Source of the DNA: Kutzneria sp. 744
Lineage (GTDB): Bacteria; Actinomycetota; Actinomycetes; Mycobacteriales; Pseudonocardiaceae
NCBI RefSeq assembly: GCF_000568255.1
Contig: NZ_KK037166.1
Location: 11,467,061-11,531,060, forward strand
Direction of reading: 5' to 3'
Length of the DNA: 64,000 nt
Program-made: the position numbers and the translations under genes
The notes under the pieces: generated by a model
Told to the model about the DNA's origin: nothing
The model's input: the letters and a program-made list of their open reading frames with translations, nothing else
Databases searched by the model: none
Shown here: piece by piece, positions 5,734 to 63,619 of the stretch
Numbering within the stretch: the first letter of the stretch is position 1
Layout of the letters: each line of letters begins with the position of its first letter

Positions 5734-8112
5734 CTACGGGTTGGCCGCATACCGAGTAAACCAGGCCGCGATGCCTGCACGGTTGGAAACTTTCAGCTTT
5801 CTTAGAACATCGCGAACATGGGTGTGAACAGTAGACTCAGCTATATGCAACTCCTTTGCGATAGCCTCGTTCGTCAACCCCTGCGCGACAAGCCGTGCGA
5901 CCTCAAATTGCCTGTCTGACAACACAGAGGTTGACTGTTCTCCCAAGGCCAATGCAACGGCGTCGTCGAACGTCAGTGACGCGCCGGCGTGGTAGGCGCT
6001 GCGATACTGTTCTGCACCGAGATGTTCGCGAATAAGATTCTCAGTGGTCGTATGCGGGGCAGGGAAAGATGGCCCCGAGTTGTCTGCCCCAGCCACCGTG
6101 CTCAGCTTGGATGCTGCGCCGAGCAATTGCGCCGCGCGTAGATGTTCACGTGCCACCGCCGCGCATCGTGCAAGGGTCTCAACCATGAACTCGGTCCCCC
6201 AGTAGGTGCCCAGATCTCGCTGCACCCGGAGGGCCTGTTCGAAGCGCTCGCGAGCCTTCGCGGCCTCCCCGATCTCCAGTTCGACGAGGCCGCGTACCCA
6301 CCTGGCCCAGCTCAGCGAGTGCCCCGCCGCGTGAGCCTCGGCATGCACGAGACATTCCTGGCTGGCCCTGTCCGCCACAGCAAGATCGTCGAATTTCATC
6401 CCTGCTTGGGCAAGATACAAGGTGCTCAGATGAAAATAGGTGGGCATTTCGCCCGAACGCAAGGCGGCGACCGCGTTGCCGAGCACGTCGATCGCACGTG
6501 CATCTTCCTTGCCGAAGAGAAGGTGCACACCCTCAGCAAAATCGGCCAATGCGTGAGCGGTTACCGCGTGGCGCGGTTCAGATTCCGCTGTTTCTTTCGC
6601 GGCGTGTTGGCACCGATTCGCCCAGTCCTCGGCGGCAGGATCGTTCTGCAACATCGCGTGCCACACTGTGTGCGTGAAAACGACCATTCGTTGAATGCTC
6701 GGTCGCGCATCGGGCATTCCGAGTGCTCGTATCAAATAACGCTGCCCTTCTGCGACGGAGGCCGCAGTGAACCATGTGGTCGCTTGACTCAGGGCGGCAA
6801 GCAAGGAAATCGCCATATCCGTGAGGTGGATATGGCTCAGACACCATGTCACCGCCACCCGAAAGTCGGGCATGTGGTGCCGCACGGTGTCCACTACCAG
6901 GGAATCGCATGGTGAGAACCGCTTCGCCGCCACCTCGGTCGCGACCCGACAGAAGAACTCAGCATGGCGCTCGTGCCACTGGGTGTCGCCGTCCGGAGTT
7001 GAGGTTTGCAGAAGGGTCAGGCCGTAGTCTCGGATTGGATCCAAGAGCCGGTAGCGGGCTTGGCCATCGACCGTCTGCTCGCGAGTGACTACCGATGCCC
7101 ATACCAACGAATCCAGGACATCCACGATGGATTCGGCGCCGATCAGTCCGTTAGAGTCTCGATCGGCGCAGACTGCCTCCGCCGCCTGGATGTCGAAGTC
7201 GCCCGCGAACACCGACAGCCGCATCCAGAGGTCCCGGCCGGCGGGGCTGCATAGGCTCTCGCTCCAGGCGATGCAATCCCGCAGGGTCTGGTGGCCGTCC
7301 GTGGAGTCACGGCCGCTGCGGTCCAGGACTGCTAGTAGGCCGCGGGACGACTCGAGCATGTCCCGCAGGCCCATGCCGCGGAGCCGTCCGGCGGCGAGCA
7401 CGATCGCCAATGGGATGCCGCCCAGTCGCCGAACGAGTAGCGAGACCAGTTCAGGATCGGCGGTGTCGCCGAAGTCCAGCAGACCGACATCTGCGGCGCG
7501 CGTGACGAGCAGCTGGACTGAGTCATAGGCCAGGTCGCGTACATGTCGAGCTGACTGGTGCTGCCCTTCCGGCGGGACCGGCAGCGGCGGAACCGGCCTG
7601 ATGCGTTCGCCCTCCACTCGGAGTGCTTCACGCGAGGTCGCCAGAATTCGGACGCCGGGCGCGCCGTCCAAGATCGCGTCGACGAAGGCTGCGACGCCGT
7701 CGATGAGGTGCTCGCAGTTGTCCAGGACCAACAACATCCGCTTGGTGCGCAGCCACTCGACCAGCGTCGAGAGGATGGTCCGCTCGTCGTTGTCGTGCAG
7801 CCCCAACGTCGTGGCGACAGCGGCAGCGACCAGGTCGGGATCCCGATGCGGTTTCAGCTCGACCACCGTCACGGACATGGCCGCAGCCATCTCCCGCGCG
7901 ACGGCCAGGGCCACCGAGGTCTTCCCGACGCCCCCGACGCCGTCGAGCGTCACTAACACGGCAGCGGCCAGGTCCGCGATCACCGCGTTGATCAGATCCG
8001 CGCGACCGACCAGCGGCGACCGCGCAGCCGGCAGCGCCGATGCTGCCTCGGCCTTCGATGATCGCGTGTCTGCCACACAGGACAGCGAACACCACCCGAT
8101 CGGCGAGGACAA
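5734..8112 (-). CDS. Large STAND/LuxR transcriptional regulator
   Basis: A 792-residue regulator of the LAL/AfsR-like ATPase type. It has an N-terminal NB-ARC-like ATPase with Walker A GVGGVGKTS (about residues 56-64) and Walker B MLLVLDNCEH (about 130-139), then a long helical-repeat sensor region. A C-terminal LuxR helix-turn-helix follows (LSDRQFEVARLVAQGLTNEA, IAKELHIAESTVHTHV). Such proteins bind ATP, sense a ligand or partner through the repeats, and activate a few promoters. It is divergent from the P450 gene across 134 bp, so that P450 is the obvious candidate target. The start could be internal: a GTG codon 13 residues in begins VADTRSS. Confidence 0.9.
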   Translation of the reverse strand: MSSPIGWCSLSCVADTRSSKAEAASALPAARSPLVGRADLINAVIADLAAAVLVTLDGVGGVGKTSVALAVAREMAAAMSVTVVELKPHRDPDLVAAAVATTLGLHDNDERTILSTLVEWLRTKRMLLVLDNCEHLIDGVAAFVDAILDGAPGVRILATSREALRVEGERIRPVPPLPVPPEGQHQSARHVRDLAYDSVQLLVTRAADVGLLDFGDTADPELVSLLVRRLGGIPLAIVLAAGRLRGMGLRDMLESSRGLLAVLDRSGRDSTDGHQTLRDCIAWSESLCSPAGRDLWMRLSVFAGDFDIQAAEAVCADRDSNGLIGAESIVDVLDSLVWASVVTREQTVDGQARYRLLDPIRDYGLTLLQTSTPDGDTQWHERHAEFFCRVATEVAAKRFSPCDSLVVDTVRHHMPDFRVAVTWCLSHIHLTDMAISLLAALSQATTWFTAASVAEGQRYLIRALGMPDARPSIQRMVVFTHTVWHAMLQNDPAAEDWANRCQHAAKETAESEPRHAVTAHALADFAEGVHLLFGKEDARAIDVLGNAVAALRSGEMPTYFHLSTLYLAQAGMKFDDLAVADRASQECLVHAEAHAAGHSLSWARWVRGLVELEIGEAAKARERFEQALRVQRDLGTYWGTEFMVETLARCAAVAREHLRAAQLLGAASKLSTVAGADNSGPSFPAPHTTTENLIREHLGAEQYRSAYHAGASLTFDDAVALALGEQSTSVLSDRQFEVARLVAQGLTNEAIAKELHIAESTVHTHVRDVLRKLKVSNRAGIAAWFTRYAANP

Positions 8113-50682: not shown

Positions 50683-50890
50683 CGTTGCAGCTTGCCGGTC
50701 AGCTCCAGCACGAGTTCGGGGATGCCAGTGCGCGTGGCGGCGGCGGGGTCGGGCAGCGCCGACCAGTGGTCCAGGCTTCGGGTCCAAGCGTCGGCCTGGC
50801 CCAGGCCGTAGCCCAGGGTGCCGGGCGACGTCGCGCACCGCCATGCGCGGGCGGTAGGAGATGACGTTGGCGACCAGGGCGGCGTTGCCC
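50683..50890 (-). pseudogene. dnaE2: dnaE2 internal fragment, frameshifted
   Basis: AALVANVISYRPRMAVRDVA then, one frame away, YGLGQADAWTRSLDHWSALP and TGIPELVLELTGKLQR correspond to the polymerase-domain stretch also present in the 57333 fragment (VISYQQRLAIRDVARALGHD...). A one-base insertion near DVARHPG breaks the frame. Both ends of similarity are abrupt. Confidence 0.7.
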
Positions 50891-50947
50891 TCCGCCAGCA
50901 CCGGCAATCCGTTCGCCGCGCGCGGGCCGGTACTCGATGATGGCGGC

Positions 50948-52237
50948 ATGACCGACCCGACGCCGCCGACGCTGTACCTGGGGCCGGCCGTGCCCCGGTG
51001 GCAGCCGCGCACCATCGCCGACATTCGGACCGTGCTCGCGGACGGCCTGCTGGCCGAACGGCATTGGCTGGACGCCAAGCGGGAGATCAGCACGGGCTCG
51101 GGCAAGAAGGACGCGAAGAAGGAGCTGGCGCGCGACGTCGCCTCGTTCGCCAACGACGGCGGCGTGCTCATCATCGGCATCGACGAGGACAAGACGACCG
51201 GCACGTTCACTCTCGCCTCGCAGTCGCTCGACGGCCTGGCCGAGACCGTCGAACAGATCGTCGGCCACCATTGCGACCCGCCGGTGTTCGTGCAGTGCCA
51301 CCGGATCGTCGATCCGAACGACCCCATCGGACCGAATCGGGGCGTCATGATCGTGGAGGTCCCACCCAGCCCGCTGGCCCCGCACATGGTCGATGGCAAG
51401 TACTTCGGCCGCGCGGACACGCTCAAGCGCGTCCTGCCCGACGCCGACGTCGAGCGGCTGCACGTCATTCGCCGCGCCCGGCAGGTCACCGCCGAGGAAC
51501 TGATCGACCGGGAGATCGACCGCGACCCGGCGCCGGCCGACGAGCGGGACGGGGTTCGGCTCTACGTGGTGGCCCGGCCGATGTCCAGTCCGCCGGAGCT
51601 GCTCACCGAACACTTTGTCACCGGCGCTCTCACCACGGTGATCCACGCCGCGCGGGCCACGGGTGAGGACGACAGGTGGCCGCGCGGTGGCTATGTCGAT
51701 CCGCGTGCGCGCGGGATCGGTTGGCCGTCGCGGAACCTGCGGGGGCGGCGGCAGGCCGGGAAGTCCCACGGAGACTCGGACCTGGAGGTGCACGACGACG
51801 GCACCATCACCTTTTTCGCCGACACCCTGTCCGGGTCGATGAACCCGAGCCACCGGCAGCAGCATTTCGTCCGGTTGGAGGCGGTGCTGGGGCTGGTCCG
51901 CAGCGTGGTGCAGTTCGCCGGCGAGATCGGCGCCCGGTTCGGCTACGCCGGCCAGTGGCAGCTCGCGGTCGGCGTGACCGGTCTGCGCGGCCTGCCGGCC
52001 GCCATCGTGACCCGCAGGCACGATTTCGTCGACTTCACCGAGCTGGCCACCTTCAGCGAGCTCCGCTACACCGCCGGCACGACGGCCGTCACCGGCGAGC
52101 TCACCACGGCCGCGGCCGCGGTCACCCGGCGGCTGATGATGCGGTTCGCCCGCGCCTTCGACCTGCTCAACCGCGTCGAGACCGACGACTACCTCGGACG
52201 CCCACGCCAGCAGGCACAGGAGGAGCGCGATGCCTGA
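50948..52237 (+). CDS. AlbA_2 (Schlafen-like) domain protein
   Basis: 429 residues from ATG 50948. The N-terminal domain reads ERHWLDAKREISTGSG, then ELARDVASFANDGGVLIIGI and DEDKTTGTFT, and later NRGVMIVEVPPSPLAPHMVD with GKYFGRADTLKRVL. This is the AlbA_2 / Schlafen-type nucleic-acid-binding fold ('E-x-K...A-F-A-N-x-x-G-G...I-G-I-x-D'). The C-terminal 200 residues (SSPPELLTEHFVTGALTTVI, MNPSHRQQHFVRLEAVLGLV) are a separate helical domain often seen in such actinobacterial proteins. AlbA_2 proteins occur both as regulators and in phage-defence loci. The next gene, overlapping its stop, is decayed. Confidence 0.85.
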   Translation: MTDPTPPTLYLGPAVPRWQPRTIADIRTVLADGLLAERHWLDAKREISTGSGKKDAKKELARDVASFANDGGVLIIGIDEDKTTGTFTLASQSLDGLAETVEQIVGHHCDPPVFVQCHRIVDPNDPIGPNRGVMIVEVPPSPLAPHMVDGKYFGRADTLKRVLPDADVERLHVIRRARQVTAEELIDREIDRDPAPADERDGVRLYVVARPMSSPPELLTEHFVTGALTTVIHAARATGEDDRWPRGGYVDPRARGIGWPSRNLRGRRQAGKSHGDSDLEVHDDGTITFFADTLSGSMNPSHRQQHFVRLEAVLGLVRSVVQFAGEIGARFGYAGQWQLAVGVTGLRGLPAAIVTRRHDFVDFTELATFSELRYTAGTTAVTGELTTAAAAVTRRLMMRFARAFDLLNRVETDDYLGRPRQQAQEERDA

Positions 52238-55786: not shown

Positions 55787-57211
55787 CTATCCCGCGTCTG
55801 GGCGTACCGCGCTCGGCGGCACCACCGGCTCTGCGCTGGCCTCGTCACGCCCAACAACGGACCAGACACCGGTTCCTGTCGGAAGCTCGTCTTCGACATC
55901 CCACAAGCGGTCAAACGATGGCTGAGGCATCGGCTCGTCCGCGCCCAGTGGCCGCTCGGTCCAGCCGGTCGGCCACAGCCGGGGTGCGCCGGCGTTGGTC
56001 TTGTAGTTGGTAAGGGCCCGGGCAGCGGTGAGGTCGATGCCGCCGGGGACTGTGATGTCCGTGAAGCTGGCCATCCCGCTGAACGTGGTGCCGGCGAAGT
56101 TGGCTTGTTGCGGGCCGAAGTCCGCATGCGTGAACTGGGTGGTCGAGCCGAACCACGCATTCGGGAAGGACGCCGCTCCGTCCTCGAACCGTGTGTACGC
56201 GAAGTTCGCGAAGAACCTGAAGCGGGCGCCGCCGAACAAGCCTCCACCGATGAGCCGTGCGTGCCGGAAGTCCGCGCTCGCCATCGCCGCGCAGTTCATC
56301 TCGAAGTCAACAAGGGTCGCGCCAGCGAGATCCAGATCCATGCCAGGCCAGAAGGCTCCGTCGAGGTGGTTCAGGCCGGGCCACTGGCCGTCGAACGCGT
56401 CGGCGAACCAGGCGTAGGAGTGGCCGTTGGCGCACAGGTGGCTGCGGAGGACGAGTTGGATCGTTTTGCGGACCAGCAGTTCCTCGTCGTTGCCTTGCAC
56501 ACGGCCGGCCGGTCCAGCGATCCGCAAGCTGCGCGATCCGATGCGGGAGGAACCACGCTGCTCTGGGCGGCGAAGCGTTGGCTCGAATGGCATCCTCAGG
56601 TACGCGCACAGCAGGTTTACGACCATCTGCCGCTGGTCGGGGTTGTCCTGCGCGAGGCGTTCCAACGCGTAGACGCCGGCCAACCGGACCGGGGCCTTGT
56701 CGGAGCCGAGCTGGTCGGCTGCCTTGGCGTAGAGGTCGATGGTCCGGCGTTCCCGGGCGTCGGCCTCGGTGGCGGCCGCAACGCGCTCCAGGTGAGTGCG
56801 GGTGTCGGCGGCCTGTTGCTGCTGGAACGCGAACTGCTGCTCGGCGTGGTGCTGGTCGACAGCCTTCTGGTTGAGCCCGATCTCGCCGGTCTGCTGTCGG
56901 CGAGCGGTCAGCCACAGCGCGGCGGCACCGCCGGTGCCGAGCACGACCGTGCCGGCAGTTTTGATGGCGTCGAGCTGGTCGGCGTGCTGTCCGTTGCCGA
57001 ACACGACCAGCAGCGCCACCGCGAGGCCGACGCCGATGGTGATCAGCCCGATGGCCGCCCACCGGATCACGCGGTTGGACAGCACCGGGTAGGTCGCCGG
57101 CGCGGCGGGTGAGCTCGGCACCGTGCCGGTAGTGTGCTCGGGCTCCGGGACGGTCTCGCTGCCGGAGTGCGCCGCGGGTTGCGCGGTTGGTGTCGTCTGC
57201 TCGGCCGCCAT
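55787..57211 (-). CDS. Membrane-anchored pentapeptide-repeat protein
   Basis: 474 residues from ATG 57211. A Pro/Thr-rich cytoplasmic start is followed by two transmembrane helices (WAAIGLITIGVGLAVALLVV and AGTVVLGTGGAAALWLTA). A coiled coil comes next (QKAVDQHHAEQQFAFQQQQA), then RLAGVYALERLAQDNPDQRQ, a signature of actinobacterial pentapeptide proteins. The A(D/N)LxX-type repeats follow (LDGAFWPGMDLDLAGATLVD, MASADFRHARLIGGGLFGGA, TTQFTHADFGPQQANFAGTT, FSGMASF). Common in actinomycetes; role unproven. Confidence 0.88.
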   Translation of the reverse strand: MAAEQTTPTAQPAAHSGSETVPEPEHTTGTVPSSPAAPATYPVLSNRVIRWAAIGLITIGVGLAVALLVVFGNGQHADQLDAIKTAGTVVLGTGGAAALWLTARRQQTGEIGLNQKAVDQHHAEQQFAFQQQQAADTRTHLERVAAATEADARERRTIDLYAKAADQLGSDKAPVRLAGVYALERLAQDNPDQRQMVVNLLCAYLRMPFEPTLRRPEQRGSSRIGSRSLRIAGPAGRVQGNDEELLVRKTIQLVLRSHLCANGHSYAWFADAFDGQWPGLNHLDGAFWPGMDLDLAGATLVDFEMNCAAMASADFRHARLIGGGLFGGARFRFFANFAYTRFEDGAASFPNAWFGSTTQFTHADFGPQQANFAGTTFSGMASFTDITVPGGIDLTAARALTNYKTNAGAPRLWPTGWTERPLGADEPMPQPSFDRLWDVEDELPTGTGVWSVVGRDEASAEPVVPPSAVRPDAG

Positions 57212-57975: not shown

Positions 57976-60900
57976 CTAATCCGCCCCAAGCATTCGGATG
58001 TGCCGCCATATGTGGGCGTAGCTGCGGTGCACCGCGCGCATCCAGGAAGGAACAGAGTGCCAGTCGGCGGCAACCTCTCGCTCGCCCCAAGCCACTTGCA
58101 TGATCCGGCGATCACCGACGAAGCTCTCGACGAGATCGCGGCGCAGGTAGAGCAGGTGGCCGCGCCAGGGCTTGTCCGCGCGGAAGACTGCGGAGGCGCG
58201 TCGGCCGTCCAGGCCCACGAGGTCGACGGTGCCGGGCAATTGGCGCAGGCCGAACCGGGCGGCGAACTCGAACGACGGCACGTCGTAGCCCCCGCCGAGC
58301 CCGATCTCTGAAGTGCTGCCGGGGGAGAAGTCCACGGCGACCTGGCCGAACTCGATGCCGTCGTCCTGCCAGTCGCCACGCAGCGCTCGGTGTGGGAAGT
58401 CACCCAGGGCATCGTCGTCGAACCTCAGCTCGAACCGGGGGCTCCAAGGCATCTCAGCGGCCAGCACGTCGCGGACCGTCGGCAGCTCAGGAAAGAAATG
58501 GTTTCCCGGATACTGGCGCTCGCTGGCGAGCTGCCGAGCGGGTTCCACGTCCTCCGGCTTCAGCAGGAGAGTGCGGAAGAACCCGAACACCGTCCGCCCG
58601 TCGTGGCGGTGGTCCAGGTATCCCTCGACCAGAAGCCAGCCGCCGTCCACTCCGTGGATCTCCTCAGGTGACCACAGATGGTCCGGGACAGCCACCGTCC
58701 CCGAGGTAAGCCAAGTCTGGTCGTCGGTCGGCTCCATAGGCGCCCACAGCGGAAGGGACATGGGTGCTACCGGGGGCGTGGCGGGGAAGGTCGGGTCGAT
58801 GTCAGGCATCCAACGTTCTGCGTCCCCGAGAGGGGCCGGTGCGCGGCCGGCGTCCACGAGGCGGCCGACCATTTCGCGGTAGCCGATCCAGCCGTACTTC
58901 TTGCCGTACCGCTCTACCCTCCTTTTGGTGCTGTAGGGCCGCTCCGCGTTCGCGGCAATGGATCGGTCGACGCTGCCGAATTCCTTCTCGCGCCAGCCTA
59001 GTTCCCAGACGCGAGCCATGACCTCAGCGCGGGCCCTGCGGTAGTCGGCGTGGTTGAAGTCGTAGTTGTCCCTGCCGTTGATGGCGGCCCCGATGATGTA
59101 GTTCTCGAAGTCGATGCCGAAGGTGCGGTCGCATTCGTCGGCGTTGGGGTCGTCGTCCTCCATCACCTCAGCGGGCGCAACTGCGGCGAACCTCGGCGCG
59201 AAGGCATCGACACCGTCCGGGATGGCGGCGGGGTGGAGAGCGCCAGCGAATTCATAGGTGGCCCGTACGTAGCCGCGCAGTTGCTCGTTCGAGGTGGGTG
59301 TGGTCCCGCCGGCCAGGAAGTGGTCGCGCAGCTGCACCAGCCAGTCCCGCAGGGCGCGTTCGAGCGGTCCGCCAGGATCGGGCATCTGGTGGGTGCTAGC
59401 CGCCCCGAACGCTGCGGCGACGATGCGTTCGACGACGTAGGGGTCGTCGACGTCGAGCATCCGGGCGGCGAGGTCGAACAGCCGCTTGGGTTCTGGCTGG
59501 CCGTAGCGCTGGAGGGCTTTCGTCGCCAGGTCCCGCATGATCGAGTCCGTGGAAGTCAGCAGCCAGGCGATGGCCAGCGCGTCCAGGTCGTCGCTCTCGG
59601 CGCGATTGCTGCTTCCGGACCACCTGTGGATCGCTCGTTCCAGGTCTGCTGTCAGCCGACCTGGGGCCTGGCCTCGAGCCCATTCGGTCCAGCGCAGGTC
59701 ACGTTCGGGAACGGACAGCTGGCGCAGGACGCGGTCGAGGAATACGGCATTCAGGCGGTGTGGGGCGGACCTGCGGATCTCCCACAGACGGCCGAATGCT
59801 GGTCGGCCCTTGCTCTTGCTGGGATGCGCGGTAACGAGCGCGGTAGCGAGCGCGTCGACAGTCTCGTTGTCGAGGAAGTCCGACTCGGTGGTGAGTTCCT
59901 GGGCGAGAACCAACGAACGGTGCTCATCCGGGGCGACGCGCCACAGGTGTTGCCGGGTGAAGCGGCGTGGCAGCAGCGAGATGAGACCGATGAGGATGTC
60001 CTCGCCGAGGGGGTGTGCTTGGTCGCCCAGGAGGGACTGCCAGAGAGCCGTCTCCGCGAGCTGCTCATTGACCTCCGCAGGGGGAATACGCACCAGAATC
60101 GCGTCGGCGATCAAGTATCCAGCGAGGCGGTCAAAAACGAAGCCGCACTCAGTGTCGTCGGAACCCTTGATCTCCTCGCGGAAGATCACTCCTTCCTCTA
60201 CGAGTCGCCGGAGCAGGCTTTCGTCCCAGTTCGGCTGGTCGGTGTCGAGGATTCTTCGCGTTTCGTCGAAGTGAATCCGACGGACGTTGTGTGTCCACAG
60301 GTGTCTCGCCAGAGCGGCGAGGCGGTGCTGGATCTGGTCGGCCGGCACCGGGATGCGGGCCGGGTCCTGGGCCAGCCGCTCGACCACGCCCTCGCGGTAC
60401 AGTTCGAAGACGCCGATGAGGGAATGAGGCAGTGCCTCCACGCCCACAGGCGCTCGGCGGTCGTGGTTCGCGGCCTCGCAGTACATGCGCACGAACAGCG
60501 GGTTGTGAAACTCTCCGATCGGTAGCCAGGCGTCGGCCGGGTTGATCAGATAGTCGCGGAAGTAGACGCGGAGGATGTCGTCGACTTCCGCACGCTGCCA
60601 CTCCAGTTCCAGTGGCACCGTGTCCTTCGGGAGAGCCTGGTCGGCGAGTGGTTCGCGGAGGGTGACGATCACCGCCACGTGAGGGTAGCCGCCCAGGGCC
60701 GGTGCCAATCCCGCTAGCAGTGTCCTCCATTCCGAGGGCCGCTCAGCTTCGTTCAGGCCGTCGATGATCAACGGTATCCGGCAGCCGGCGCGGTTGCCGG
60801 CTGAGTTGAGCGCTTCGAGGAGGTCCTCGAAGTGGTCGACCTTCAGTCCGGGGATCCGTCGCGCGAGGTCGTCGAGGGTCTTGCCAGCGCGCAGGTTTCC

Positions 60901-61986
60901 GCCCTGGATGAAGACTCCTGCCGTGAGCTGGTCGTTAGGTGAGGTCGTCTGCGCGGCGAGGTGCGTCTTGCCCTGTCCCGCGGCGGCGATGACGGCGAGC
61001 AGGGGGGCTTCGGTGTCTGCCCGCGTGTCGTGCAGCCAATGGACGATGTCGCGGATCTCCGCGCCGAGACCGGTGACGAGCAGCGCCTCGGGCAGGCGAC
61101 GTTGCCTTAGTTTGAGCACCAGGCGTCGCAGCGTGCGGGGAGAGGTTGCGGGTGGCCGCTGTTCGGCGAGGCGATCGCGGACTTCCCAGGGCCGGAGGTT
61201 CCTCCCGGCGTCGAGGACCTCCCGCAGGTCGTCGACGAACCGGTCCAGGTCGTCGGCAATCTCGGCGGCGTCTTGGCGGAAGGTGGTGTCCAGACCGTCA
61301 AGGGCTGCGCGCAGTGCCTGGATCCGAGCTGCGATGTCGTCTGTGCGCTGCTCCAGCCACTCGAACGACGCCGGGCGCAACAAGGCCCGGTCGATGCGGT
61401 GCTCCACGTGGTGAGAGGTGTGCAGCCGTGGCGTCCACCGTGCCTCGACGGGCGCAACAGATCGCTTGTGGGCTTGCGCCAGTACGTCTGCGGTGAGGGC
61501 GAGTTCGCCGAAGAAGGTGGAGCGGAGCTCATCGTGTCCGGCGAGTTCTGCGTCGTAGTTCTCGGTGGACCAGAGTTTGACGCTGACGCCCTGCCCACCG
61601 TGTCCGTCGATCCACTCCTCGTCGTTCTTCGCGGGCCGTTGTGGAAGGCAGAGCACGAAGTCGGTCAGGCCGGCGACGTGCTTGATCGCTTTGGAGAGCG
61701 AGTCCTCGATCTGATCACGCTGGCCCACTGTCAGGCGGTTCTTGCTGTCGAGGATGAACCACTTGCACGACCAACCAAATACCCGGCCGGGATCACCCAG
61801 GACACCGGCGTGGTCTACACGCAGGTAGAACTCGACGCCGGGCTGGTTCCGGCGCTCCCGCATTGTGCCCAGCGCGCCGTAGCGGCGGGACACGATAGCC
61901 CGCGTGAGCGCTTCGAAGTTCTTGTCGGCGGCGCCGGGCAGGCGCGCCAGATCAGTCAGATCCACCGTCGCTCCGGTTGCTTGCAT
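57976..61986 (-). CDS. Nuclease-STAND NTPase, Avs-like defence sensor
   Basis: 1336 residues. N-terminus (about 20-160): a restriction-fold nuclease candidate with FEALTRAIVSRRYGALGTM, PGVEF (Glu52) and GWSCKWF (Lys75), plus a helix QRDQIEDSLSKAIKHV as in Cap4/Mrr-like enzymes. About 300-560: a STAND ATPase with Walker A IAAAGQGKTHLA (Lys340), Walker B RIPLIIDGLNEAE (Asp409) and the arginine sensor region VIVTLREPL. About 560-1336: a long helical then mixed C-terminal region typical of a target-recognition half. This order is that of Avs-type proteins, which oligomerise on phage proteins and degrade DNA. ATG 61986 overlaps the preceding small gene by 35 nt. No frameshift is visible. Confidence 0.85.
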   Translation of the reverse strand: MQATGATVDLTDLARLPGAADKNFEALTRAIVSRRYGALGTMRERRNQPGVEFYLRVDHAGVLGDPGRVFGWSCKWFILDSKNRLTVGQRDQIEDSLSKAIKHVAGLTDFVLCLPQRPAKNDEEWIDGHGGQGVSVKLWSTENYDAELAGHDELRSTFFGELALTADVLAQAHKRSVAPVEARWTPRLHTSHHVEHRIDRALLRPASFEWLEQRTDDIAARIQALRAALDGLDTTFRQDAAEIADDLDRFVDDLREVLDAGRNLRPWEVRDRLAEQRPPATSPRTLRRLVLKLRQRRLPEALLVTGLGAEIRDIVHWLHDTRADTEAPLLAVIAAAGQGKTHLAAQTTSPNDQLTAGVFIQGGNLRAGKTLDDLARRIPGLKVDHFEDLLEALNSAGNRAGCRIPLIIDGLNEAERPSEWRTLLAGLAPALGGYPHVAVIVTLREPLADQALPKDTVPLELEWQRAEVDDILRVYFRDYLINPADAWLPIGEFHNPLFVRMYCEAANHDRRAPVGVEALPHSLIGVFELYREGVVERLAQDPARIPVPADQIQHRLAALARHLWTHNVRRIHFDETRRILDTDQPNWDESLLRRLVEEGVIFREEIKGSDDTECGFVFDRLAGYLIADAILVRIPPAEVNEQLAETALWQSLLGDQAHPLGEDILIGLISLLPRRFTRQHLWRVAPDEHRSLVLAQELTTESDFLDNETVDALATALVTAHPSKSKGRPAFGRLWEIRRSAPHRLNAVFLDRVLRQLSVPERDLRWTEWARGQAPGRLTADLERAIHRWSGSSNRAESDDLDALAIAWLLTSTDSIMRDLATKALQRYGQPEPKRLFDLAARMLDVDDPYVVERIVAAAFGAASTHQMPDPGGPLERALRDWLVQLRDHFLAGGTTPTSNEQLRGYVRATYEFAGALHPAAIPDGVDAFAPRFAAVAPAEVMEDDDPNADECDRTFGIDFENYIIGAAINGRDNYDFNHADYRRARAEVMARVWELGWREKEFGSVDRSIAANAERPYSTKRRVERYGKKYGWIGYREMVGRLVDAGRAPAPLGDAERWMPDIDPTFPATPPVAPMSLPLWAPMEPTDDQTWLTSGTVAVPDHLWSPEEIHGVDGGWLLVEGYLDHRHDGRTVFGFFRTLLLKPEDVEPARQLASERQYPGNHFFPELPTVRDVLAAEMPWSPRFELRFDDDALGDFPHRALRGDWQDDGIEFGQVAVDFSPGSTSEIGLGGGYDVPSFEFAARFGLRQLPGTVDLVGLDGRRASAVFRADKPWRGHLLYLRRDLVESFVGDRRIMQVAWGEREVAADWHSVPSWMRAVHRSYAHIWRHIRMLGAD

Positions 61987-62386
61987 TCGGCCGCGCGATC
62001 GCGTCCTCGTCCCATTCGTGGCGGGAGTAGACCTCGACCCTCGCGCCGTAGTGGAGAAGCACCTTCAGGAATCCCTGAACGTCGGACTCGTCGGTCCAGA
62101 TCCGGACCGTCTCCGCTGTGCGGGTGACGCTGTGATCGAGTGCGAAGACGTCGACGTCGTGCCGCCCCATGTCGTACAACTTCATCTCGGCCAGCGCTTG
62201 GCCGAGTTCGCGAGGCATGCGCTCGTCGGGGCTCCGCCAGTCGTCGTCTGACCACTTGTCCTCAGCAAGGGCCTGCAGGGCCTCCATGCGTTCTTCCGCT
62301 GCCTTCGCGCCGGTGATCGTCTGGAATCGGCCGATCAGAACCAGGTTCATCGAGTGCTCCGAGCCGTAGCCGTTCCAGATCCTCAT
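61952..62386 (-). CDS. DUF6375-like small protein
   Basis: 144 residues from ATG 62386 with GGGAGG 5 nt upstream. It begins MRIWNGYGSEHSMNLVLIGR, then EERMEALQALAEDK, VDVFALDHSVTRTAETVRIW, DVQGFLKVLLHYGARVEVYS RHEW. I associate the 'W-x-GYGSEHSMNLV-x-IGxF' start and 'FLKVLxxxGARVEVYSxH' end with the family catalogued as DUF6375 (from memory). It looks like a small α/β protein without catalytic motifs. It overlaps the radical SAM stop (ATGA) and the STAND gene start, placing it between the two as a likely adaptor, substrate or inhibitor. Confidence 0.8.
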   Translation of the reverse strand: MRIWNGYGSEHSMNLVLIGRFQTITGAKAAEERMEALQALAEDKWSDDDWRSPDERMPRELGQALAEMKLYDMGRHDVDVFALDHSVTRTAETVRIWTDESDVQGFLKVLLHYGARVEVYSRHEWDEDAIARPNASNRSDGGSD

Positions 62387-63282
62387 GGTGCCTCCCTCAA
62401 TGCATGCACAGCTTCCATGATGCGGATTCCGACTGACAATCCCGTGGGCGCGTAGGCGTGAGGGCGCAGGACGCCGGTCGCGTCGATGTGCATATGCGCG
62501 TCGAGAGGGTGCTCGCCTGGGATGGCCTCCGCTGTGGGCAGTGCGGCTTCGAGGCCGGTACGGGAGATCGCGAGCCGAACCCCTGTCCTGGCGATCGCGG
62601 CCCATTCGACGAGGCGCTGCGCGTCAGCGTCGCTGATCCCCGGAGTTGCCGCGGTCGGCTGCTCCGGCAGAAGCAGAAGTTCGGACGCGCCGACCTTGTC
62701 GGAGAACTCGGCGAGGTCATCTAGTTCGCTGACCGTGTCGGCATTGATGACGGCGTTGATGCCGAAAGGGGCGAGGGTGCCGAGCAACCCTGCCGCTTGG
62801 ACCACAGCCGCGAACCGTCGGCTGCGGAGCCGCTTATAGGTGGTTCCGACCCCGTCGACTGAAAGGCGGACAAAGTGCACGGCCCCGCGCAGGGATTCGA
62901 CGAGTTTGGGTGTGAGCCGGTGCCCATGGGTCGTGAAGGTCACCGCCATAGACGTGGACTGAGCTATGTCCGAACACAGCTGGGCGAACCTTCGGTATGC
63001 GGTCGGTTCCCCTCCTCCGAAGCCGACACCGAGGCACCCGGCGGCATCAAGTTCGACCGCCCATGCCAGCACACGCTCCCTTTCGAGCGCGGCGGCGTGC
63101 TTGGGCGCGTAGCAGTACGCGCAGTGGAGCTCGCAGGCGTTGGTCAGCGCGACGGACAGGTACCGGGGAGCACGGGAGAACTGCTCAGCGGGAACAGGTA
63201 CCTCGTCGAGCAGTACGTTCATCCCGGAGACACGGTCAAACAGGTGAACACCAGCTGCGGACAGGCGAACCTTGCACGTCAC
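62383..63282 (-). CDS. Radical SAM enzyme of the defence-like operon
   Basis: 299 residues. The 4Fe-4S/SAM motif is C50-x3-C54-x2-C57 (TNACELHCAYCYAPK); a GGGEP motif follows at about 89-93. Barrel strands continue (MAVTFTTHGHRLTPKLVESL, VHFVRLSVDGVGTTYKRLRS, INAVINADTVSELDDLAEFS, LLLLPEQP). The N-terminal block HLFDRVSGMNVLLDEVPVP precedes the core. No SPASM cysteine cluster is present at the C-terminus (ATGVLRPHAYAPTGLSVGIR). It is not viperin by sequence look. GTG 63282 is the likely start, ATG 63222 an alternative. First gene of the three-gene overlapping operon. Confidence 0.85.
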   Translation of the reverse strand: MTCKVRLSAAGVHLFDRVSGMNVLLDEVPVPAEQFSRAPRYLSVALTNACELHCAYCYAPKHAAALERERVLAWAVELDAAGCLGVGFGGGEPTAYRRFAQLCSDIAQSTSMAVTFTTHGHRLTPKLVESLRGAVHFVRLSVDGVGTTYKRLRSRRFAAVVQAAGLLGTLAPFGINAVINADTVSELDDLAEFSDKVGASELLLLPEQPTAATPGISDADAQRLVEWAAIARTGVRLAISRTGLEAALPTAEAIPGEHPLDAHMHIDATGVLRPHAYAPTGLSVGIRIMEAVHALREAP

Positions 63283-63619
63283 CGACAGTATGATGCCACG
63301 CCGTCAGCCGCTTGTCCGACGTACCCGTCGAGCTGAGCCTGGGCCGAGGCAAGACGACCTCAAGGAGATACCGTTTCGTGCTGAAAAGCGCATGTCGCAC
63401 CAAGATCGTCGTTCTCTGGCCCGATGCCGCCACGTCGGTGGCAGAGTGCTCTTCGCGGGAGCACTTCGGAATGAATTACCAGGCATCGAAGGTGTCGCTG
63501 ACCGTCACATTCTCGATACCGCCGAGCTGTGTCGCCGTACTGTCAACAGGGCCGCACCTGAGGACTGGCTGCAGATACCTACAGATCAAGTGCAAACCTT
63601 ACGTGTCGTCGGCAGGACC
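63283..63619. other. Upstream region of the radical SAM operon
   Basis: About 340 bp with no gene I can support on either strand. It should contain the promoter of the minus-strand operon. Several open frames overlap here, but none has protein character. Confidence 0.4.

Follow-up and report, generated by a model that had tools for sequence, protein, structure and literature searches.

A radical SAM, DUF6375 and nuclease-STAND gene trio from Kutzneria sp. 744 as a candidate three-gene anti-phage system related to Avs2

In a 64,000-nucleotide stretch of the Kutzneria sp. 744 genome (contig NZ_KK037166.1, positions 11,467,061 to 11,531,060; the whole stretch is called the window here), three neighbouring minus-strand genes encode a radical S-adenosylmethionine (SAM) enzyme, a small DUF6375 protein and a large protein that appears to join an N-terminal nuclease domain to a STAND NTPase. 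Judged by sequence homology, the trio appears to be a real, widespread and mobile three-gene variant of Avs immunity. The three genes almost certainly act as one unit, and the third protein is very likely an Avs2-like phage sensor-nuclease. The whole explanation favoured here, an anti-phage system on an Avs2-related sensor in which the radical SAM enzyme modifies the tail of the DUF6375 protein, was given a probability of about 0.5.

A profile search of genome contigs, with one genome per species and 84,980 species, gave 59 DUF6375 loci. A relative of the radical SAM enzyme was found directly upstream of DUF6375 and on the same strand in all 59, and a STAND relative was found downstream in 57, the other two (L059 and L075) ending at contig ends. 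The sequence-only reading had proposed a search for the three proteins together in actinobacterial genomes; the genes are kept together far beyond chance, and they reach beyond the actinobacteria into 11 named phyla (58 of the 59 loci, L041 carrying no phylum), with Deinococcota as one further phylum through plasmids. Several loci are from metagenome-assembled genomes, and two of them, L026 and L027, are from a single Streptomyces genome. The stop codon of the radical SAM gene and the start codon of DUF6375 overlapped by 4 nucleotides in 38 of the 48 loci measured, while the others ranged from -1 to +94 nucleotides. The possibility that the small protein belongs to a housekeeping family, which would have undermined that reading, does not agree with its rarity: genomes with a PF19902 match above the cut-off numbered 4 among 298 sampled from the order, 3 among 394 from the class and 1 among 296 from the phylum, the Kutzneria sp. 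744 genome itself being counted in each sample and a match in genome G652 (20.8 bits, below the cut-off of 27.5) being left out. Among the 298 genomes, radical SAM orthologues (E <=1e-15) occurred in exactly the 4 that have DUF6375, and among the 394, full-length STAND relatives occurred in exactly the 3 that have it, where the two best candidates were scored per genome; the 298 and 394 samples were drawn separately for each search with the same request and were taken as identical since their handles agree. Genome G298 had a partial STAND match (742-1306, 32%) without DUF6375. The Kutzneria sp. 744 genome contains one DUF6375 match only, that of the trio.

A similar association was seen on plasmids. 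DUF6375 was found in 16 of 72,556 plasmid records, and in each of these a gene annotated as radical SAM overlapped the match or lay next to it. The STAND protein matched 56 plasmid records; in 15 of them the match reached a coverage of 77% or more, and all of these carry DUF6375. The remaining 41 matches were partial and none was among the DUF6375 records. On viral contigs the DUF6375 profile gave no confirmed relative and the radical SAM profile gave one complete trio (L102), and in phage records no DUF6375 match was found at E 0.01.

The three proteins also diverged together. For 52 trios, drawn from loci in which no gene was split, short or cut, the pairwise distances of the three proteins were correlated with r values of 0.925, 0.956 and 0.960, against a maximum below 0.16 in 999 permutations. 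When only the 1,115 distant pairs were used, the correlations dropped to 0.523, 0.578 and 0.780; the highest value in both sets, 0.960 and 0.780, was that of DUF6375 and STAND. No fourth conserved gene was found: the 339 flanking open reading frames (ORFs) of at least 150 residues around the 59 loci fell into 281 blastp clusters, the widest present in 4 loci, and the immediate downstream ORFs likewise gave none. In some loci a fourth gene does overlap the end of the STAND gene (L103:23425-25713, L067:12685-15603 and L070:12684-15602), and the 972-residue protein of L067 and L070 had no blastp match to the 762-residue one from E. coli.

The assignment of the third protein as a divergent Avs2-type sensor-nuclease is made by homology of sequence. 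All 31 aligned trio members match Avs2 models, and the window protein scored 239.1 bits with NCBIfam Avs2 (NF041813), far below the equivalog cut-off of 1000. A profile built from the 31 members had a single PDB match at E <=0.01, namely Avs2 (9o4e, E 2.9e-85), in which profile positions 162-967 (the NTPase and helical region) aligned to residues 165-989 and positions 977-1314 (the C-terminal region) to residues 1093-1447 with 92.4 bits, including the R-x-GKKY-x-WI block. The residues of the RYGKKY-x-WI motif are conserved across 52 STAND sequences, as are Walker A Lys340 and Asp409 (52 of 52 each). In the N-terminal domain, the nuclease signature consists of Glu25, Glu52 and Ser/Gln-Cys-Lys75; both glutamates are invariant across the 52 sequences and Lys75 is kept in 49, with Arg in L057, L065 and L068. 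A profile of the N-terminal 200 residues (26 sequences) had one significant PDB match, residues 2-103 of Avs4 8dgf (whole-sequence E 1.5e-4, E of the stretch 0.0015), in which the NFE, NQ-G-E and GWQ-K blocks line up. A Pfam scan of the N-terminus gave no nuclease family, and Pfam NACHT was matched at E <=0.1 in 10 of the 31 members, the window protein not among them. The key residues on which the sequence-only reading had relied, Glu52, Lys75, Lys340 and Asp409 in these 52 sequences and Cys54 in the 41 radical SAM sequences below, are thus present and conserved. Its fusion of a PD-(D/E)XK nuclease to a STAND ATPase gained the N-terminal motif and the Avs4 match, while the fold is a prediction from sequence.

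Compared with known systems, the STAND protein resembles Avs2 in the core of its NTPase, in the helical region and in a C-terminal sensor with an R-x-GKKY-x-WIA block, and by eye the FE...G-I/V-E...Q-x-K order of the nuclease was also seen in four of the five Avs2 relatives inspected that lack the pair of upstream genes, the exception being that of G298. It differs from Avs2 in lying far under the NCBIfam cut-off and in having the radical SAM and DUF6375 genes in front. An Avs2 gene typically stands alone as a single gene, whereas the upstream pair was present in all loci found. Plasmid relatives that lack the pair are 24-28% identical along 20-55% of the protein, with one at 41% along 12%. 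When 37 STAND proteins were placed in a tree, the 32 from trios formed a clade apart from five pair-less relatives, with a Shimodaira-Hasegawa-like approximate likelihood ratio test (SH-aLRT) value of 100; this was a quick tree, with warnings from the program about long branches and uneven composition. The rows of this tree and of the 43-, 41-, 31- and 26-row alignments were picked by hand, and many near-identical and most broken copies were excluded (all broken copies in the 41-row radical SAM alignment). Avs4 shares the nuclease end (no other PDB entry was matched significantly by the N-terminal profile), whereas the remainder of the protein follows Avs2. A second Avs2-type protein (L096:6285-11042; 1585 residues in the frame read, 457 bits with NCBIfam Avs2) is encoded in the same genome outside the window, about 60 kb beyond the trio.

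The first protein has the features of a radical SAM enzyme. The CX3CX2C motif (Cys50, Cys54 and Cys57) and a GGGEPT stretch are invariant in all 41 aligned sequences. The only other invariant cysteine is Cys103; Cys83 is conserved at 0.83, and position 251 is Cys at 0.61 and Ala in the window protein. Judged by eye, the C-terminal HIDAxGxLRxxSY stretch presumably resembles a twitch/SPASM hairpin minus its cysteine. When the radical SAM profile was searched against PDB, the best match was SkfB (2.5e-17), followed by PqqE (4e-11), tetraether synthase (6.1e-10), two radical SAM entries of unnamed function (2e-9), viperin (4.8e-9) and MoaA (6.7e-7). SkfB and PqqE are peptide-modifying enzymes. In NCBIfam the best model was MoaA, with 54.9 bits against a cut-off of 284.05, and viperin reached 44.5 bits against 180; the 25 models listed, out of 61, all scored under their own cut-offs. 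The enzyme shares the radical SAM core with SkfB, PqqE, viperins and MoaA, and differs from them in these scores and in having no conserved auxiliary-cluster cysteines.

The second protein is a full member of PF19902 (213.1 bits against a gathering cut-off of 27.5) and matched no other Pfam family. Its profile gave no PDB match below E 0.2. In the AlphaFold2 (AF2) model a strand is followed by three helices, two strands, a helix and a last strand, an order compatible with a ferredoxin-like core. The most conserved block is at the N-terminus, where residues 1-13 have a mean identity to the consensus of 0.92 and include the tail motif W4-x-x-Y/H7-G8-S/A9-E10-H11-S12, and residues 1-8 were predicted with a pLDDT (predicted local distance difference test) score below 50. 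In a motif-independent set of homologues, consisting of four distinct plasmid proteins and one viral-contig protein obtained with the radical SAM profile, W4, G8, E10, H11, S12 and L15 were kept in all five. Similarly, the five actinobacterial homologues found with the Pfam profile, the window protein included, wholly kept Y7 to M13. All four codons are in use for Gly8, which indicates that the constraint acts on the protein. A conserved, poorly ordered end encoded beside a radical SAM gene would look like a modification target or a docking peptide, and these two are not told apart. A crosslink between Y7 and E10, considered by analogy with pyrroloquinoline quinone (PQQ), was dropped since Y7 is His in L077.

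It is stated in PMC12931631 that the Avs1 to Avs4 nucleases cut phage and host DNA upon recognising terminase, portal or Ksap1. By homology, the C-terminal domain of the STAND protein would sense a phage protein, the NTPase would oligomerise, and the N-terminal PD-(D/E)XK nuclease would cut DNA, with death of the infected cell. The radical SAM enzyme would post-translationally modify the DUF6375 protein on its W-x-x-Y/H-G-S/A-E-H-S tail, and the sensor would require the modified protein as a partner by which it is licensed or tuned. The occurrence of the same tight trio in distant bacterial groups suggests immunity with an enzymatic modification step. A modification step by the radical SAM enzyme had already been suggested by the sequence-only reading; we still infer it, now with the conservation and low predicted order of the tail and the SkfB best match as new support. 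Tail modification is the most likely reading of the role of the pair, while the claim that DUF6375 is the substrate stands at somewhat short of an even chance. If it is the substrate, the product is probably required rather than restraining. The general statement, that an NLR-like (nucleotide-binding leucine-rich repeat-like) phage sensor depends on a second protein carrying a radical SAM modification on its N-terminal tail across at least 11 phyla, is offered tentatively.

The trio shows signs of mobility and decay. In E. coli, 25 of 5,426 genomes matched a radical SAM-DUF6375 DNA query. The STAND gene was present in all three regions read and frameshifted in one; tRNA-Thr and tRNA-Phe genes lay within about 7 kb and a tRNA-Asn gene accompanied by a broken integrase lay about 12 kb further out, so that integrase and tRNA genes occur in the same stretch as the trio. 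In a plasmid of Deinococcus peraridilitoris the expected place of the STAND gene is taken by transposase genes, and in two Vibrio plasmids an IS3 transposase gene splits the STAND match. A tblastn survey of gene integrity over 69 loci found the STAND gene interrupted beside an open pair in L025, L031, L069 and L104, truncated near a contig end in L033 and L055, and absent in L101. More than one gene was damaged in L036, L046 and L011, and the radical SAM gene of L039 and L075 stopped a few codons early. L011, from genome G026, looks like a decaying copy in which residues of the Cys motif are lost, DUF6375 is frameshifted and the STAND gene has a stop. The neighbour survey covered 136 flanking ORFs of 40 loci (taken from 212 candidates within 5 kb in 41 loci with a GC content below 66%), and among the 25 commonest of 563 PADLOC and of 124 Pfam families, where the commonest in either library had 4 matches, were type I restriction (3), Gabija (2), AbiE (2) and phage integrase (3). 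After the trio of a conjugative Vibrio plasmid comes a SIR2-family gene of 1271 residues (L078:16915-20730), possibly a second defence gene.

Several points weigh against tail modification and against the defence context. SPASM or twitch cluster cysteines are common in peptide-modifying radical SAM enzymes, and no conserved cysteine set for such an auxiliary cluster was found in the 41-sequence alignment. All PDB matches of the enzyme were confined to residues 36-208, that is the radical SAM core, and so do not fix its substrate. The 59 loci were retrieved with patterns that contain YGSEHSM, by which the strictness of the tail was inflated, and in the motif-independent homologues Y7 was kept in four of five, S9 in three and M13 in two. 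The low pLDDT of the tail is weak evidence of disorder. The core residues T98, E100, K108, S121 and H123, invariant or nearly so, could equally mean that DUF6375 is an enzyme or a ligand-binding protein. The defence neighbours were counted by presence, with no background rate, and are supportive only; ribonucleotide reductase, which is not a defence family, was found in 3 of the 136 ORFs. Furthermore, L043 has a nonsense codon in the radical SAM gene and L034 a frameshift in DUF6375, each beside an open STAND gene, and sequencing errors are possible in both.

Other roles for the pair were weighed against the same data. Viperins make nucleotide analogues, and the radical SAM enzyme and DUF6375 might together make or alter a small molecule, either a direct antiviral or a ligand that arms the sensor. 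The match of the radical SAM core to PADLOC pVip models (1.2e-14), the viperin structures among the PDB matches and the (near-)invariant polar residues of DUF6375 listed above would fit such a role. However, the pVip match spans only the generic core, residues 44-152, MoaA scores slightly higher than viperin in NCBIfam, SkfB and PqqE outscore it in PDB, and we know of no obligate tie of viperins to one STAND clade; we consider this role unlikely. The pair could also act on the STAND protein or on host nucleic acid, as a self mark or an activation, with DUF6375 as an adaptor for substrate recognition. Apart from the pair, the unit has only the STAND gene as a conserved member, DUF6375 is small enough for an adaptor, and the DUF6375-STAND distance correlation was the strongest of the three, whereas the small protein matched DUF6375 alone among Pfam families, and this too is put at a low probability.

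A role in which the pair restrains a toxic nuclease, like an antitoxin, would agree with the gene overlaps, with the pair being transcribed first and with the strict co-occurrence. The open STAND genes of L034 and L043, beside a broken gene of the pair, argue mildly against pure restraint, subject to the possible sequencing errors; restraint is quite improbable, and a pure antitoxin is unlikely. Defence genes cluster in islands and defence families occur among the trio's neighbours, as would be expected if the pair were an independent defence module merely travelling with an Avs gene. The adjacency in 59 of 59 and 57 of 59 loci in 11 named phyla, the variable flanks and the co-varying distances make such a module highly improbable.

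Accessory genes are not without precedent in Avs-type immunity. The sequence-only reading had taken Avs proteins of this domain order to be single-gene sensors in general, which does not hold, since AVAST systems with nuclease-protease partners are described in PMC12799240. Those systems are like the trio in that an Avs sensor has accessory genes which bring a protein-processing step, and unlike it in that the accessory proteins are a protease and a nuclease of the metallo-beta-lactamase type. Similarly, radical SAM modification of a small peptide was predicted for FtsH/VMAP ternary conflict systems by Kaur et al. (PMC7159879); the NTPase partners and peptides there are different, and the modification is a prediction there too.

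In the open-access literature searched no paper was found with 'DUF6375' and none with both 'Avs2' and 'radical SAM'. No description of the trio was among the matches listed from that literature, a scope that leaves subscription papers, preprints and supplements mostly outside; it is not shown by this that the trio is unpublished. PADLOC calls the third gene Avs2, gives a weak viperin match for the core of the radical SAM enzyme and has no model for DUF6375. Because it sees mainly the third gene, trio loci are easily filed as plain Avs2. If the proposed mechanism is true, an NLR-like immune sensor would have radical SAM chemistry among its requirements, and the trio would represent a form of bacterial innate immunity licensed by post-translational modification. 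DUF6375 gains a concrete context and a testable role, and the occurrence of the trio in E. coli makes it directly testable.

The layout of the locus is given in Table 1. The Kutzneria sp. 744 genome is one contig of 11.65 Mb and the window lies near its end. The three overlapping ORFs were recovered where the sequence-only reading had placed them, and its overlaps of 4 nucleotides (ATGA, between the radical SAM and DUF6375 genes) and 35 nucleotides (between DUF6375 and STAND) were reproduced, the latter only with the STAND start at ATG 61986. A GTG at 61965, with GGAG in front, is a plausible alternative start and would cut the overlap to about 14 nucleotides. The ATG of DUF6375 is preceded by GGGAGG. 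For the radical SAM gene, inspection by eye of window positions 63270-63300 placed the GTG start just after a CATACT-like hexamer, with no ribosome site evident there, and its transcript is possibly leaderless.

Table 1 Features of the trio locus in window coordinates
Feature	Position	Strand	Evidence
Radical SAM enzyme, 299 aa	62383..63282	-	Pfam Radical_SAM 7.4e-15; AF2 mean pLDDT 90.5
Radical SAM cluster-binding Cys motif, codons 50-57	63112..63135	-	Cys50/Cys54/Cys57 in 41/41 aligned
DUF6375 protein, 144 aa	61952..62386	-	PF19902 E 2.3e-63; AF2 mean pLDDT 80.0
DUF6375 conserved N-terminal tail, codons 1-15 (proposed radical SAM target)	62342..62386	-	Consensus identity and pLDDT
Nuclease-STAND sensor, Avs2-related, 1,336 aa	57976..61986	-	PADLOC Avs2 PDLC02164 E 2.4e-108
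Putative N-terminal PD-(D/E)XK-type nuclease domain, end approximate	61507..61986	-	Profile match to Avs4 8dgf
STAND NTPase core and following helical region, limits approximate	59377..61011	-	Alignment to 9o4e
Predicted C-terminal sensor region, limits approximate	58045..59379	-	Alignment to 9o4e; RYGKKY-x-WI motif (1026-1034)

Some further genes around the trio were recorded. Pentapeptide-repeat proteins are encoded on both of its sides, at window positions 55787-57211 on the minus strand and, at or past the window end, at L097:3055-3951 on the plus strand. A protein with a Schlafen AlbA_2 domain (Pfam 1.3e-12) is encoded about 6 kb from the trio, at 50861-52237 on the plus strand. A LuxR-type regulator with a weak match to STAND/NB-ARC NTPases is encoded at 5734-8112 on the minus strand.

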